A DNA stretch of 51,914 bases from contig VGAI01000003.1 in NCBI GenBank assembly GCA_016870815.1, positions 1 to 51,914 of the forward strand, read 5' to 3'. Within the stretch, counting starts at the first letter, position 1. Each line of letters opens with the position of its first letter. Both the position numbers and the translations under genes were made by a program. The notes under the pieces are model-generated. The model did no database searches, had not been told where the DNA came from, and was given only the letters and a program-made list of their open reading frames with translations. Of this stretch, positions 24,743 through 33,544 are shown piece by piece. The stretch comes from Actinomycetota bacterium. GTDB lineage: Bacteria > Actinomycetota > Actinomycetes > Nanopelagicales > Nanopelagicaceae.

Positions 24743-26035
24743 TTACGCGCTCTTCTCTTCGTTACGGCGTTCACTCTTCGCGCGCTTTGGCGCGTTAGGA
24801 CCACGCTCTAGATAAAGCGGCGCCACTTTGTCACGGACCACAGCGGCATTGATGATGACGCGACCGACATCTTTGCGACTTGGCGCTTCATACATGACGC
24901 CAAGCAAGATTTCTTCCATGATCGCGCGAAGACCTCGGGCACCAGTCCCGCGAGCAATCGCCTGATCTGCGACGATTTCAAGAGCCTCTGGCTCGATCTC
25001 GAGTTCGACATCGTCCATCTCAAGCAGGTGTTGATATTGCTTGACCAAAGCATTCTTCGGTTCGGTAAGGATCTGTAATAGCGCCTTTCGATCGAGACTC
25101 TCAACGCTGGTCACAACAGGAAGGCGACCGATGAATTCGGGAATCATGCCGAATTTGAGGAGATCCTCGGGCATCACATCTGCGAATGGATCTTCCTTCT
25201 TCTTATCTTCAATCGACTTCAACTCGGCATTGAACCCGACACCTGCTTTGCCTTTTCTTCCTTCGATGATCTTCTCAAGGCCAGCAAAAGCACCACCGAC
25301 GATAAAGAGGATATTCGCAGTATCGATCTGAATGAATTCTTGATGTGGGTGTTTCCGTCCGCCTTGTGGTGGAACTGATGCAGTTGTTCCTTCCAGGATC
25401 TTCAAGAGCGCCTGCTGGACACCTTCACCAGATACATCACGAGTGATCGATGGGTTCTCGCTCTTTCGTGCGACCTTATCGATCTCATCAATATAGATAA
25501 TGCCTTGCTCTGCCTTCTTCACATCGAAATCTGCAGCTTGGATCAACTTGAGCAGAATGTTCTCGACATCTTCTCCGACATAGCCTGCTTCGGTGAGCGC
25601 AGTCGCGTCAGCAATAGCAAAGGGAACATTAAGCATTCTCGCGAGAGTCTGAGCGAGAAGAGTCTTGCCACAACCAGTGGGGCCAAGAAGGAGGATGTTG
25701 CTCTTTGCAATTTCGATATCGCCATCGCGCTTCGGGCCATCGCCTTTTATTCGCTTGTAGTGGTTATAGACGGCGACCGAGAGCGATTTCTTTGCTCGCT
25801 CTTGGCCGATCACATATTGATCAAGAAATTCGTAAATCTCAGTTGGTTTAGGAAGTTCTTGTAGCCCAAGGGATGAAGCCTCGGCTAACTCGTCTTCCAG
25901 GATCTCATTACAGAGTTCGATGCACTCATCGCAAATGTAGACGCCTGGTCCTGCGATCAACTTCTTCACTTGTTTCTGCGTCTTTCCGCAGAAGGAACAT
26001 TTAAGGAGATCGCCGCTCTCACCGATACGCGTCAC
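24743..26035 (-). CDS. clpX: ClpX, AAA+ unfoldase of the Clp protease
   Basis: Recognises substrates, unfolds them and feeds them to ClpP. The 430-aa product has the N-terminal C4 zinc domain ([28 protein letters not shown]), Walker [13 protein letters not shown], Walker [10 protein letters not shown], pore segment and sensor motifs, and a C-terminal domain with [10 protein letters not shown]. The GTG at 26035 gives [13 protein letters not shown], the family start, after a GAGAGG ribosome site. A 17-residue extension from an upstream start is unlikely. It is separated from clpP2 by an MFS gene. Confidence 0.97.
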
Positions 26036-26132
26036 GGTTTGCCTCTCTATAGGGGAAGTTCTCTTGGGAGAAGGACGATTGATCAAATGCCATCAAGCAC
26101 CGAACCAATCGAGCCCCTTAAGGATAAATCGC

Positions 26133-27380
26133 TCACTTAGCTTCTTCTCGGAGGACTTGTTCGCCCTGAGAGGAATCCGTGGGAGTCTTGAGTTCGATCA
26201 CGCCTGGAATAAAGAGCACCAGTAAACAGGTCACGATATGAAAGCCGGTGGCAAAGAGCAGGTACTCCCTCATGCCGATCCATTCGGTTATTGGACCAAC
26301 CAAAGCCATCCCCAGCGGCATCAGCGCAAGAGAACCCATGTGATCGACGCTAAATACTCGTGCCTGCAACTCTCGAGGTACTTCACGTTGAATCGCCGTC
26401 GGCCAATAGACACCAAAAGGTTCAGTCGATAGACCAACAATGAAGTAGACACCGATGACAACCCATGGGTGAATCGGAAACACTAAGACTAAGAGAGATG
26501 TCGAAAAGAGCATCCATGAGAGCACAGACCAGAGGCCCGGCTTTGGCACTTTGATCTTCGACCAAACGAGAGCTGAGATTCCTCCGCCAAGGCCTGCCGC
26601 AACAGATGCTGCAGCAAAGACAAAGTTAGTTCCGAATTCTTCGCGAGTAACAACTGGCAATAAGACCACTTCTGCACCTACAACGACCATCAACTGGATG
26701 CTTGCCATGATTACGATCCACATCACCCAGGGCATTCTTCTTACTGTTGTAAGGCCCTCTCGTAATTCACGAAGGAAAGTACCTTCGGTCAAGTTTCGCT
26801 CGAACTCGCCCTCTTTTACTGGGAAGAGAAGTGCGGTGCCAACCACGAAGAAAGCTGCAGTCACTAAAAAGGTCCACTCACTCCCAATCACAGCAACCAT
26901 GGCGCCACCTAGTGCGGGGCCAAGAATCGCGCCTGCGCGCGCCGTTATCGCTCGCCAGGCGTTTCCCTCTGGCAATAACCGATCAGGAAGTACCGAAGGC
27001 AAAATCGCGCCGGAGGCAGGAAAACCAAGTGCCTCTCCTGCACCCATCAAGAAGACGACGAGAGCGATCGTCCACGCAGGAAGATCTGTGACTGCAACGA
27101 TGACCAGCACCACAGTGAGAACTGCACGGAGTAGATCTGCCACGATCATTATGTATTTGCGCTTGAATCGATCAGCCCAGACCCCGCCAGCAAGTGCAAG
27201 TAGGACAGATGAAAGAACCCGCGAAGCAAGGATCACACCGAGCGTTGTTGCACTTCCGCCTGAATCAAGAACAGTTACTGCAAGTGCTATCGGAAATGCA
27301 GATGACCCGATGACAACGAGCAGCCCTGATATCCAGAGCAGTACGAAGTCGCGGTGTTGAAGAAGTCTCTTCTCTTGCAC
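26133..27380 (-). CDS. MFS transporter, EntS-like exporter type
   Basis: Twelve-segment major facilitator, 415 aa, of the group with EntS and macrolide-type exporters (MFS_3 by appearance). Visible features: the N-terminal RDFVLLWISGLLVVIGSS, the loop 2-3 motif GGVWADRFKRKYIM and GFPASGAILPSVLPDRLLPEGNA typical of this family. The substrate is unknown. The GTG start at 27380 lacks a Shine-Dalgarno sequence and lies 20 nt after clpP2, so it is probably in the clp transcript. It interrupts the usual clpP2-clpX adjacency. Confidence 0.85.
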   Translation of the reverse strand: MQEKRLLQHRDFVLLWISGLLVVIGSSAFPIALAVTVLDSGGSATTLGVILASRVLSSVLLALAGGVWADRFKRKYIMIVADLLRAVLTVVLVIVAVTDLPAWTIALVVFLMGAGEALGFPASGAILPSVLPDRLLPEGNAWRAITARAGAILGPALGGAMVAVIGSEWTFLVTAAFFVVGTALLFPVKEGEFERNLTEGTFLRELREGLTTVRRMPWVMWIVIMASIQLMVVVGAEVVLLPVVTREEFGTNFVFAAASVAAGLGGGISALVWSKIKVPKPGLWSVLSWMLFSTSLLVLVFPIHPWVVIGVYFIVGLSTEPFGVYWPTAIQREVPRELQARVFSVDHMGSLALMPLGMALVGPITEWIGMREYLLFATGFHIVTCLLVLFIPGVIELKTPTDSSQGEQVLREEAK

Positions 27381-27400: not shown

Positions 27401-28033
27401 CTATTTCTTTGCTTTACGCGTCGAGAGAATCTGATCGATGAGTCCGTACTCGACCGCCTCTTGAGCAGTCAGGATCTTGTCGCGCTCAATATCCTTTTCG
27501 ATATCTTCGCGAGACTTGCTTGAATGCCGCGCTAAGAGATCTTCCAAGAGATTTCGCATACGAAGGATCTCGCGAGCTTGGATCTCGATATCTGATCCTT
27601 GACCCCCTCCTTCGCTATACGGTTGATGAATCAGGATTCGCGAATGCTCCAGTGCGTAACGCTTTCCTTTTGTACCGCCCGCAAGAAGGACTGCAGCAGC
27701 CGATGCCGCCTGCCCCAAGCAAATTGTCATCACATCTGGGCGGACGAATTGCATCGTGTCGTAAATCGCAGTGAGCGCAGTAAATGAGCCACCAGGTGAA
27801 TTGATGTACATGATGATGTCTCGATCTGGATCCATCGACTCAAGAGTGAGGATCTGTGCCATCACATCGTTTGCGACGGTGTCATCGATAGCTTGGCCGA
27901 GGAAGATGATTCTCTCCTCGAAAAGCTTTGTATATGGATCGAGGCGCTTGTACCCGTATGAAGTCCGCTCCTCGATAGTCGGAAGAACGTAGCGAGCGCT
28001 TATCTCATGCTTCATTGAATCTTCCCTCTTCAT
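27401..28033 (-). CDS. clpP2: ClpP protease subunit, ClpP2-type
   Basis: Serine peptidase subunit of the Clp protease; in Actinobacteria ClpP1 and ClpP2 rings combine to the active form. The 210-aa product has [14 protein letters not shown] near the start, S111 in [19 protein letters not shown] and H136 in LIHQPYSEG. It starts at an ATG overlapping the clpP1 stop by 4 bp; a second ATG at 28015 with its own GAGGGA site is an alternative. Confidence 0.95.
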
Positions 28034-28647
28034 CGCGCTGTACCTCCGCTACCTGAAACCTGGCCGGCAGATTTCACAACGTGATCCACAAATCCATATT
28101 CTTTCGCTTCGGCCGCAGTGAACCAACGATCGCGATCCGAATCGGTAACGATAGTCTCGACTTTCTGCCCTGTGTGATGCGCGATCAAATCTGCCATTGT
28201 CTTCTTCGTATGCGCCATTTGCTCAGCTTGAATCCGAATATCGCTTGCAGTTCCACCGATACCACCTGAAGGTTGGTGCATCATGATTCGCGCATGTGGA
28301 AGTGCATATCGCTTTCCTGGCGCTCCGGCGCAGAGCAAGAACTGACCCATCGACGCTGCAAGACCCATTGCCACAGTTGCGACATCGTTCTTGATGTATT
28401 GCATCGTGTCGTAGATGGCCATACCCGCAGTCACTGATCCACCCGGAGAGTTGATATACAAGAAGATGTCTTTCTCAGGATCTTCGGCAGCGAGCAAGAG
28501 CATCTGAGCCGCTATCGCATTCGCCATTGAATCCTCAACCACTGAACCAAGGAAGATGATTCGTTCTTTCAAAAGCCTGTTGTAGACCTGGTCATCCAAT
28601 CCACCCAGCGCACTTGGTCCTGCCAGTTTGGGGGTAATGATCTCCAC
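28030..28647 (-). CDS. clpP1: ClpP protease subunit, ClpP1-type
   Basis: Second Clp peptidase subunit, 205 aa, with catalytic S99 in [11 protein letters not shown] and H124 in IMMHQPSGG. The GTG start at 28647 follows AAGGAG with 7-nt spacing. It heads clpP1-clpP2. A ClgR-type palindrome lies about 170 bp upstream. The 190-bp upstream region also contains a TGTTAGGGT extended -10-like element around 28745. Confidence 0.95.
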
Positions 28648-28816
28648 GCCAATCTCCTTCGTGATCTTCTGCTCTCGCCCAGTTTTCTTTCGTCTCTACC
28701 ACCAAAGAGTTGGTGATGAAGTCGCTCGGGCAACCTGATGACCCTAACAATCTTTGCTGGCAGTTGCTTCCCGATAGCCGCCCATTTCCCGACTTTTGGC
28801 CAACTAATGCACCTTT

Positions 28817-28833
28817 GTTCGCTCAGGGCGCAA
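28817..28833. promoter_or_regulatory. ClgR-type operator upstream of clpP1P2
   Basis: The sequence GTTCGC-TCAGG-GCG fits the GTTCGC-N5-GCG site described for Streptomyces ClgR, and the core CGCTCAGGGCG matches the CGCYNANRGCG core I recall for the Corynebacterium ClgR site. It is placed between the secreted-protein stop (28839) and the clpP1 start, on the correct side for activation. clpP1P2 is the known ClgR target in Actinobacteria. Confidence 0.65.
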
Positions 28834-28838
28834 TGGCT

Positions 28839-30722
28839 TTAGGGAGTCACCGTAATCGGAATTGTGTAGCTCAACTTGCCACTCGTTAGCGTCACGACAC
28901 TCTTACCTGGTTTCAAGAGTTTAAGACCCGGATTGGTTACATAGGTCGACTCTCGCCGTCCTTTCACAAAGGCCACTACCTTCTTGTTGGCAATCTTGGC
29001 ACTCCAGGTAGTTGGCTTCTCAACTGTGAAAACGATGACATCTCCCATTTTGGCGGTTATCTTCGTGACAACTTTAGGGTTGATAAGTATCGGTGGCAGG
29101 GCAGTCGTCGAGGCTTGTGAAGCTGAATCGCTTGACGAAGGTTGACTGGAACTCTGCTGTGTCAGTTTCACTCTTACTGTAGGGGCAGAGTAGTTATAAC
29201 CATTTGCCGATAGAGAGAGCCAGCCATTCTTCTCACTCACAACATTCGTTGCGATTTGTTGCGTGCCGTCAGTGTTCACAATAGAGACGCTTGCATTTAT
29301 CGGAGCATCTGAGAAGCTGTAGAGACATCGAGCAACTTTGGAGTCGATAACCAGATTGTAGGAACCGACATTCGGCTTTCCGTTCTTATCGAAGTGTGGT
29401 GCGGCTACTTTGTAATCAAGAGTTTGATTCTTCTCATCGAATTGAGGTGGTGTAGAAAGAAACATGGTTGAGTTGGTCGTGACAACTCCAGCAATTCCGT
29501 CAGCCTTGGGCGTACATTCTCTGATCTTTAGACTGCCTGCCTGAACGTAATTCTGGTTTGTCTCCAGATGCCAGAGACTTTTGGTCGCAACCGCTGTATC
29601 AGTTGTTTCCTTTACGAAGTAGAGGAATTCCTTGAAGTCTGCTTCGTTGTAGTTGCTCAAGTTATGGAAAGAGGAGATCTTGTCGAAAGGTTTTGGCCCA
29701 CTTCCTGAATAGACTGCTCTCCACGGATCAGGGAAAGTGACCCGACCGGCTTTTCCACCTTGTTGAGTGACGTATTCTTGAAATTCCCTCGAAAGATTAT
29801 TGAAGCGAGTCCATACTCCGTAAACGGGTACTTGCATCGGTGCCGCCTCTATTGTGTACCTGTAACTTCCATCAGAGTCACGCGTCATTGAAAGAGTTGG
29901 ATCAGAAAGTCGTCCATTGATCCAGCCACTTGTCTTTGCAGTAACCTTCACGATAACTTTAAAGCGATAATCATTTGGCAGAGCCCAGGAAGAGGCGCAC
30001 TCTCGAATGGCGAGAAAGAAGCGGCAATCTGGCCCTTCCGCTCCCCCAAGATTTATCATTCCATTCTTGTCACCATCGGGAAAATTCAAAGTTTCTCTAG
30101 TCCATGACCCGCGCTCGAGAGTGGGTTCAAAACTCACAGCATTCAGTCCTATTCTCAACTGAAAATTGTCTTGAGGATTTTCAATGGGTTGTTGGAATCC
30201 CATGATTGATGCCCTCAACATGAAACTCTCACCGCCCTCGTGCTTAACGCCATCAAAAGACCAGAGTGAAGGGAACCACCCATCAGGGAAGTTCTTCGCT
30301 TTATCACCGCGAAAAGTTGGCTCAGACAAGTTTGGTTTTGTGCCGAGGAGTTTTCCGTTCAAGACCGTGCCATCGGGCTTGATTGCGCTTAGGCTAACGA
30401 TGCAGTCTGTTGTCAAAGTTGCAGAGCACGGTGGTAGGTACACATTGAAGCTAATGCGTTCTTGTTTCAAGCAGTCGGCTGACTTGAGGTCGTAGCAAGG
30501 AAACCCTTTGCCGTTCTTGATAGTTTCACGGTCACTGGCAATAATCAATGAAGAGAACTTGAAAGAAATTGAATCATCAACAAAGGCACCCAACCAGCCA
30601 GCTTCCTTGGTCGGCATGGGAAGTTCATAGAGTTGTTCATCAACCTGATTCGAGGATCCTTGAGCGCTTAGTGGGGTCAAAACGACAAAAATCGAAAGAG
30701 CAAGAACGATCCAACGACGCAT
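28839..30722 (-). CDS. Large secreted protein of unknown function
   Basis: I do not recognise this 627-aa protein. From the ATG at 30722 it begins with a signal peptide (MRRWIVLALSIFVVLTPLSAQGSS), which with the GAGG ribosome site and the promoter just upstream decides this start. The mature part is rich in beta-prone segments, Thr, Ser, Asn and aromatic residues, with several scattered Cys. A Ser/Thr-rich linker (about residues 525-548) leads to a C-terminal module of about 75 residues that looks like a small bacterial Ig-type fold (IANKKVVAFVKGRR, LKPGKSVVTLTSGKLSYTIPI). No membrane anchor or sortase motif is visible at the C-terminus. It sits between tig and clpP1, where Streptomyces has no gene. 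Confidence 0.8.
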   Translation of the reverse strand: MRRWIVLALSIFVVLTPLSAQGSSNQVDEQLYELPMPTKEAGWLGAFVDDSISFKFSSLIIASDRETIKNGKGFPCYDLKSADCLKQERISFNVYLPPCSATLTTDCIVSLSAIKPDGTVLNGKLLGTKPNLSEPTFRGDKAKNFPDGWFPSLWSFDGVKHEGGESFMLRASIMGFQQPIENPQDNFQLRIGLNAVSFEPTLERGSWTRETLNFPDGDKNGMINLGGAEGPDCRFFLAIRECASSWALPNDYRFKVIVKVTAKTSGWINGRLSDPTLSMTRDSDGSYRYTIEAAPMQVPVYGVWTRFNNLSREFQEYVTQQGGKAGRVTFPDPWRAVYSGSGPKPFDKISSFHNLSNYNEADFKEFLYFVKETTDTAVATKSLWHLETNQNYVQAGSLKIRECTPKADGIAGVVTTNSTMFLSTPPQFDEKNQTLDYKVAAPHFDKNGKPNVGSYNLVIDSKVARCLYSFSDAPINASVSIVNTDGTQQIATNVVSEKNGWLSLSANGYNYSAPTVRVKLTQQSSSQPSSSDSASQASTTALPPILINPKVVTKITAKMGDVIVFTVEKPTTWSAKIANKKVVAFVKGRRESTYVTNPGLKLLKPGKSVVTLTSGKLSYTIPITVTP

Positions 30723-30744
30723 TGATGGCGCCTCTTCCAGCCAA

Positions 30745-30773
30745 AACTTAGCAAGAGTTTGCGCGAATCCCAA
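30745..30773 (-). promoter_or_regulatory. Promoter of the large secreted protein gene
   Basis: TTGGGA (-35, 30773-30768), a 17-bp spacer and TAAGTT (-10, 30750-30745) lie on the minus strand, giving a 5' leader of about 20 nt that contains the ribosome site. This makes the gene an independent unit within the tig-clp block. Confidence 0.6.
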
Positions 30774-32436: not shown

Positions 32437-33462
32437 TTAAGTTACGGAACCAACTTCTCTGAAGTAGGCCACACCAGTAGTCGACATGGTTTGAGTGCCA
32501 TCAGAATGGATTATTGCTACTCGAAATGATGCTGATGCGGCCACAGAACTAACGGTTCCGACTATTCGGAAGTGATATCCAGAACGTACTCCTGAGGAAT
32601 CGCGATAGGAACCGTCGTGAATTGCTGACGAATACTCGAAGACTAGGGATGCTTCAGATGACTCCAGGGCAAGTCCATAAGCGCTACCGAGTCCAATCGA
32701 ATTTGTGACATTTCCCCTTAGCAAAATTTCAAATTGATATTTCTTACCGACCGATAAACTTCCAAAGAATGAAGAACGGTAGTTAATGTCGTTGACGACG
32801 CCGACGGAGAAAGTATCAACTTGAACTACTTGCACCGACGATGGACCAGTTGGTCCTGTCGGTCCCACGACGCCTGTTGTTCCTGTTTCACCACGCGGTC
32901 CTGCCGGTCCAGTGGCTCCTGTCGCACCTGCAGGGCCTGTTGAACCAGCAGCACCTGTCGCGCCCGTCGCACCTGTCGCGCCTGTTGCTCCAGTTGCGCC
33001 AGTAGCTCCCGCAGGTCCTACGGCTCCAGTCGCACCTACTGCGCCATGTGCACCATTTGCACCGCGTTCGCCCGTTTCACCTTTCTCTCCGCGCTCGCCT
33101 CGATCGCCTTTTTCCCCCTTCTCTCCTCGCGCACCAGAGCTTTGAGAACCAGAAACACCTTTCTCGCCGGCTTTTCCTTCAATCCCTTGCGGACCTTTGA
33201 GGCTCGTACCCATGGGCCACTTGCCATTTCGTTTTGGGCCGTAGATCGTGAAAGTAAGGACATCGATGTAAAAGTCACCATTCGCGCCAAGCGTTACCTT
33301 TGGCACTCCTCGACCATTAAGAATCGTATTGACCTCAGAACTCTCACGTCCTGCGACAGATCGAAACTTCGTTGACTTACTCCCTGTCGCATAAGCATCT
33401 TCAGGCATAAAAGTGATGACGCAAAGCAGGGCAGACAACTTGATGGCAAGGTGATTCTTCAT
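32437..33462 (-). CDS. Secreted collagen-like protein
   Basis: The 341-aa product starts at the ATG at 33462 (SD GAGGA, 8-nt spacing) with a signal peptide ([18 protein letters not shown], cleavage probably after DAYA). An N-terminal segment with [19 protein letters not shown] is the module often found before collagen-like repeats in bacterial and phage fibres. Then come about 100 residues of Gly-X-Y: first charged triplets ([17 protein letters not shown]), then nearly pure GAT triplets and [10 protein letters not shown]. The C-terminal domain of about 130 residues is beta-rich and probably the trimerisation or binding head ([30 protein letters not shown]). No anchor is visible. The function is inferred only as a surface or extracellular fibre. 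Confidence 0.88.
32850..33175 (-). repeat. Gly-X-Y coding repeat of the collagen-like gene
   Basis: Tandem 9-bp periodicity in frame with Gly-X-Y triplets; the 32,930-33,000 part is almost uniform GGT-GCG-ACR units and likely prone to length change. Boundaries are approximate. Confidence 0.85.
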
Positions 33463-33544
33463 AAGCTCAGTCCTCATCTACTGAACGGTGATTTGGGCGA
33501 AAATGGTGAGTCTTCTCACGTGAAAAGAGAAGGTGAACTTTGCC

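Follow-up and report, generated by a model that had tools for sequence, protein, structure and literature searches.

In the Nanopelagicaceae, small-genome Actinobacteria, a ClgR-type regulator most likely activates the clpP1P2 and clpX genes together from operators placed ahead of both, and would then be degraded by the protease that it induces. ClgR is the known switch of Clp protease genes in Actinobacteria, including Mycobacterium tuberculosis, where clpC1 is reported as a partner target. The features on which this proposal rests lie in the window, that is, the whole stretch of 51,914 nucleotides that was analysed (Table 1). Counts given for the family refer throughout to the source genome's own family, the Nanopelagicaceae.

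Table 1. Positions of the operators, promoter elements and genes discussed in the text
Feature	Position	Strand	Remarks
ClgR-type operator of clpP1P2, TGCGCCCTGAGCGAACA	28816..28832	-	Core CGC-N5-GCG at 28820-28830
-35-like element GGAAG	28767..28771	-	51 bp from the start of GCGAAC; GGAAG-N18-GTT in 127/127 genomes
GTTAGGGT	28741..28748	-	ECF-type GTT (28748-28746) overlapping SigA-like -10 TAGGGT (28746-28741)
Predicted 5' leader of clpP1, ~87 nt	28648..28734	-	Transcription start inferred from the -10
clpP1	28030..28647	-	GTG start; NF001368 299.3 bits, Pfam CLP_protease
clpP2	27401..28033	-	Overlaps clpP1 by 4 bases; the genome's other ClpP match, with 49% identity to ClpP1
Second ClgR-type operator CTCAGGGCGAACA, ahead of clpX	26158..26170	-	Lies within the final codons of an MFS-transporter-like ORF (26133-27380)
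TATCCT, predicted clpX -10	26121..26126	-	38 bp from the start of GCGAAC
clpX	24743..26035	-	Start GTG 26035 by homology, not TTG at 26086
644-aa ORF between tig and operator	28839..30773	-	No Pfam/NCBIfam family; ends 6 bases before the operator

Positions 28816-28832 are very probably a real landing site for ClgR. Read in the direction of clpP1 (28832-28816), the operator is TGCGCCCTGAGCGAACA. The Streptomyces form GTTCGC-N5-GCG, already recognised in the initial annotation, is matched exactly on the plus strand as GTTCGC-TCAGG-GCG at 28817-28830, followed by CAA. Also exact is the match to the Bifidobacterium consensus TNCGCT-N3-GGCGNAA (PMC9004370), and a comparison by eye with the Corynebacterium consensus WNNWMGCYNNNRGCGWWS (PMC2905415) gives one mismatch in 18 positions on the minus strand and two on the plus strand. 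From the clpP1 GTG at 28647 to the closest base of the operator is 169 bp, in agreement with the distance of about 170 bp given earlier. The long leader of about 170 nt envisaged with it is not supported, because conserved -35 and -10 elements lie between operator and gene. With TAGGGT at 28746-28741, transcription would start near 28734, so that the length of the clpP1 leader is probably set by the promoter and not by the operator.

The regions upstream of clpP1 were compared in 127 Nanopelagicaceae genomes that represent 17 genera. These were drawn from 136 family genomes with a ClpP1/P2 match, of which nine were excluded for a contig edge, a ClpP2 match only, a partial ClpP1 or, in the case of G066, later addition; G066 also carries both GCGAAC and the promoter. 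GCGAAC is present in all 127 regions versus 94 of 1270 dinucleotide shuffles, and in all 127 it is followed by GGAAG-N18-GTT, an arrangement that occurs in none of the 1270 shuffles. Although these patterns were picked after the first relatives had been read, the contrast was judged too large for such bias to matter. The sequence CYNNNRGCGAACA is exact in 122 of the 127 regions. The operator is degenerate in its left half, and CGC-N5-GCG is exact in 55 of them; the opposite strand gives 55 as well because this core is palindromic.

Relatives beyond the family carry the clpP1 operator too. CGCN5GCGAA is found with at most one mismatch at 64 of 70 clpP1 loci outside the Nanopelagicaceae. The outgroup survey comprised 80 loci, ten of which (L034-L039, L041, L045, L047 and L055) were assigned to the Nanopelagicaceae by promoter form, three of them being placed by the tree and the others by promoter form alone. 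One locus of this set, L047 (CAMCYS010000001.1), is titled Bifidobacterium breve. It has Nanopelagicaceae-type clpP1 and clpX promoters and groups with the Nanopelagicaceae in the tree, so its title is probably wrong. The initial annotation had proposed a ClgR-type operator ahead of clpP1P2, and the two points on which that proposal hung, conservation of the motif in relatives and the presence of a ClgR homologue in the genome (see below), were both examined and both hold.

The immediate neighbourhood of the operator is less constant. In two congeners, G002 and G004, the operator is immediately preceded by trigger-factor (tig) sequence, without the 644-aa ORF in between. This ORF was thus probably inserted between tig and the operator, which was kept. 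Further upstream in the window, a 346-aa ORF at 32437-33477 encodes a long collagen-like Gly-X-Y repeat (GATGATGAT...) and has a signal-like stretch at its start.

By its sequence, the clpP1 core promoter could plausibly be of the SigH/SigR type. SigH/SigR-RsrA promoters of Actinobacteria take the form GGAA-N18/19-GTT, the usual fifth base of the -35 being T or C. The clpP1 core fits this form in 127 of 127 family genomes (6 of 1270 shuffles), although its fifth base is G and its -10 also fits SigA. A protein of the source genome passes the SigH_actino cut-off of 251.55 with 290.7 bits, and after it comes an RsrA-like anti-sigma protein, which scores 43.5 bits, below its cut-off of 62.5. SigH is found in 146 of 151 Nanopelagicaceae genomes, in 144 of them above the cut-off, and GGAA[TGC]-N17-19-GTT occurs near the sigH start in 18 of 21 loci, though not in the source genome. 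In Corynebacterium glutamicum, clpP1P2 is reported to be SigH-dependent, weakly so in an rshA mutant (PMC3489674). These observations would fit a clpP1 promoter that depends chiefly on SigH/SigR, the thiol-stress ECF sigma factor, with GGAAG-N18-GTT as its -35 and -10 and ClgR as a helper.

Against this reading, GTT runs into a SigA-type TANNNT in all 127 family promoters. GTTAG[G/T]GTC is also the commonest -10 form at clpP1 outside the family, where it is shared by loci that mostly have GGGAnT in the -35 region. The GTTAGGGTC part is common to outgroups that mostly lack GGAA, and it fits SigA as well. The -10 of the M. tuberculosis promoter, TAGTGT, has been assigned to SigA (PMC3613350). 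GGAAG-N18-GTT had been taken as plainly SigH until the outgroups were aligned; since the GTTAGGGTC part proved general among them, SigH as main driver was lowered to a rival explanation. It is a serious possibility that falls slightly short of an even chance.

The search for a clgR homologue suggested in the initial annotation was successful. The source genome carries one (L025, 93 aa) behind pgsA-cinA, a setting that clgR also has in other Actinobacteria. Among NCBIfam models it scores highest with the ClgR HMM NF041677 (98.1 bits, E 3e-28), short of the 170 bits required for naming. Of solved structures, the ClgR entries 5woq and 3f51 match it best, the helix-turn-helix being the best kept part. 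Only two HTH_3 proteins, L025 and L024, were found in this genome. The score below the curated cut-off and the existence of L024 are compatible with another XRE-type regulator, not ClgR, at the clpP1 and clpX sites. Such an occupant is quite improbable, given that L024 is of the HTH_37 type and follows a small ORF that we read as toxin-like, that the helix-turn-helix of L025 is best kept relative to 5woq and 3f51, and that the motif matches published ClgR consensuses.

ClgR itself is widespread in the family, with a match in 142 of 151 genomes and in 81 of the 84 good ones. The nine genomes lacking a match include the 99%-complete G059. The GCGAAC at clpP1 is intact in G059 despite the missing match, which may reflect an assembly gap. 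Among 30 loci whose ClgR C-termini were read, one (L198) has no readable frame, and all 29 readable proteins end in AA. Mutation of AA to DD stabilised Streptomyces ClgR (PMC5352834), and Streptomyces ClpXP1P2 degraded ClgR in vitro (PMC9765437).

A second operator, which is absent from the initial annotation, first surfaced as a recurrent site when 11 genomes were searched with CYNNNRGCGAACA. The MFS-like ORF that hosts it sits between clpP2 and clpX. With at most one mismatch, this operator is present at all 52 Nanopelagicaceae loci (43 exact), versus shuffle rates of 0.1% for exact matches and 1.8% with one mismatch. The outgroup test had 72 loci in reach, ten from the Nanopelagicaceae and 62 from outside, and none of the 62 has the site, the listed hits having been compared by eye with C[CT]NNN[AG]GCGAAC. 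Two loci labelled Nanopelagicales, L044 and L046, are without the clpX site and fall outside the Nanopelagicaceae in the tree.

The clpX operator has a variant form. In genera g2, g7, g8, g13 and g15 (L412, L417, L418, L423 and L122) it reads TTCGCCTATAAGCGAACA and has the form CGC-N6-GCG. The same genera also belong to the half-turn group at clpP1 described below. In many genomes (for example, L417, L122 and L425) the clpX start codon is only about 9 bases behind the -10, which suggests a leaderless clpX mRNA.

The distances between operators and promoters follow a regular series. Outside the Nanopelagicaceae, the -10 lies 43-45 bp from GCG in 60 of the 61 clpP1 loci with a scored -10 (three of the 64 operator-bearing loci had none). 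The lone exception, with a spacing of 60, is L042 (by sequence), which branches next to the Nanopelagicaceae (support 95/78). Eleven genera of the family (72 genomes) have clpP1 spacings of 44/45, 54/55, 64/65, 76 or 86, and their 10-11 bp periodicity has a p of 0.0014 against random spacings. The window, with a spacing of 76, is three turns out. At clpX, TANNNT is located 38, 39, 48, 49 or 59 bp from GCG in 52 of 52 loci, again in whole turns. Such whole-turn spacings suggest that the activator is confined to one face of the DNA.

Six other genera (g2, g7, g8, g11, g13 and g15; 55 genomes) have clpP1 spacings of 50, 58-60 and 69, which puts them roughly half a turn out of step with the other eleven. 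The genera were split into two groups after the spacings had been seen, and the second group (50, 59, 69) is weak when taken by itself (p 0.055). A single series with a period of 5.2 bp was considered for the clpP1 spacings (p 0.009 for 5.0-5.5 bp; 0.028 for any period) and has been superseded, since two phase groups with 10.5-bp steps fit better once the clpX spacings and the 44 bp of the outgroups are considered. If the grouping is true, the half-turn position would represent a switched face of activator contact with RNA polymerase. With such a series of spacings outside the family, inside it and at clpX, the geometry by which ClgR activates becomes open to direct test.

The motif by itself carries little information. 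In the genome-wide scan proposed in the initial annotation, TTCGCN5GCGNA gave 31 strand matches in the source genome versus 29 for a reversed control, and the looser pattern YNNNRGCGAACA gave 38 versus 29. The bare motif is therefore not enriched as that scan might have shown, and what stands is its conserved place ahead of clpP1; position and conservation decide. That the clpP1 motif is a chance match without function, a notion to which genome counts equal to the control lend themselves, is refuted in practice by conservation in 127 of 127 genomes, the phased spacing and the second conserved site.

Sites at clpC and at clgR itself, which the initial annotation listed among those to be checked, did not materialise. 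For each of these genes, 0 of 30 Nanopelagicaceae upstream regions come within one mismatch of CYNNNRGCGAACA, no better than shuffles, and clpX carries the site instead. A weak clpC candidate, GCGAAAT, which three of four examined members of the genus have, was rejected; it is at least two mismatches off, and clpC overall is at shuffle level.

The CYNNNRGCGAACA survey of 11 genomes gave 128 matches versus 94 for the reversed control (summed). Most of the clpP1 and clpX matches of these genomes were counted separately and are not part of the 113 distinct matches that were classified. Of the latter, 97 lie inside ORFs that span 150 aa or more on one strand or the other, a count that includes spurious ORFs and may thereby hide matches near genes, such as a match in G000 (L365) that stands 67 bp ahead of a carbamoyltransferase-like ORF. 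Another six have no such ORF around them and precede an ORF of 110 aa or more; five of these belong to clpP1 or clpX and one is a singleton in G013 (L471). No gene besides clpP1 and clpX recurred ahead of a CYNNNRGCGAACA match between the 11 genomes surveyed. With an operator present at clpX and lacking at clpC, the ClgR regulon looks rewired from ClpC to ClpX.

In the circuit that we propose, a dimer of the XRE-family activator ClgR would bind at 28816-28832 and act as activator of the clpP1P2 promoter, on the face of the helix that is also used in other Actinobacteria. Binding at the second operator would activate clpX, such that all parts of the ClpXP1P2 protease are induced at once. ClgR, with its Ala-Ala end as in Streptomyces, would probably be removed by the ClpP protease that it induces, which would close a negative feedback loop. 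Binding, activation and degradation are proposed because of the systems of relatives, and some inducing signal is presumed. In M. tuberculosis, mutation of the site in the clpP1 promoter caused a 3.4-fold loss of activity, and the clpP1 reporter was not induced by heat or diamide (PMC3613350). Counting against the proposed circuit are the HMM score of 98 bits versus a cut-off of 170, the half-turn displacement at clpP1 in six genera sorted post hoc, the degenerate left half of the operator and the nine genomes without a ClgR match.

A more far-reaching version of this circuit is somewhat favoured. In the Nanopelagicaceae, ClgR may have been rewired so that it governs precisely one complete protease, ClpX-ClpP1P2, and no longer controls ClpC. 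The clpX operator would have become established at the root of the family and would since have shifted solely in steps of full helical turns, ClpXP would destroy ClgR via its Ala-Ala tail, and six genera would use a clpP1 operator placed half a turn off. A family that moved its switch from ClpC to ClpX would constitute a natural experiment on which unfoldase does the work of quality control.

Published ClgR targets named elsewhere are clpP1P2, clpC, clgR, hrcA and lon (PMC2905415, PMC9004370, PMC9775585). In M. tuberculosis, clpX is among the clp genes induced by ClgR under hypoxia (PMC3976341), so the link between ClgR and clpX is not wholly new; no clpX operator was noted in that paper. No description of a shift from clpC to clpX was found in the openly searchable literature on ClgR in Nanopelagicales or freshwater Actinobacteria, and as far as can be seen the shift is undescribed, whereas the clpP1P2 operator is of a known type. 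The system resembles the ClgR regulons of Corynebacterium glutamicum, Streptomyces lividans, M. tuberculosis and Bifidobacterium breve in its ClgR-like activator and in having CGC-N5-GCG in front of clpP1P2, the GCGAAC half being the one nearer the promoter. As in those regulons, ClgR ends in small residues (AA here and in Streptomyces), which have been described as a Clp tag (PMC5352834, PMC9775585). Unlike in those four regulons, clpX of the Nanopelagicaceae carries a conserved operator while clpC and clgR do not, and the spacing between operator and promoter is stretched by helical turns.
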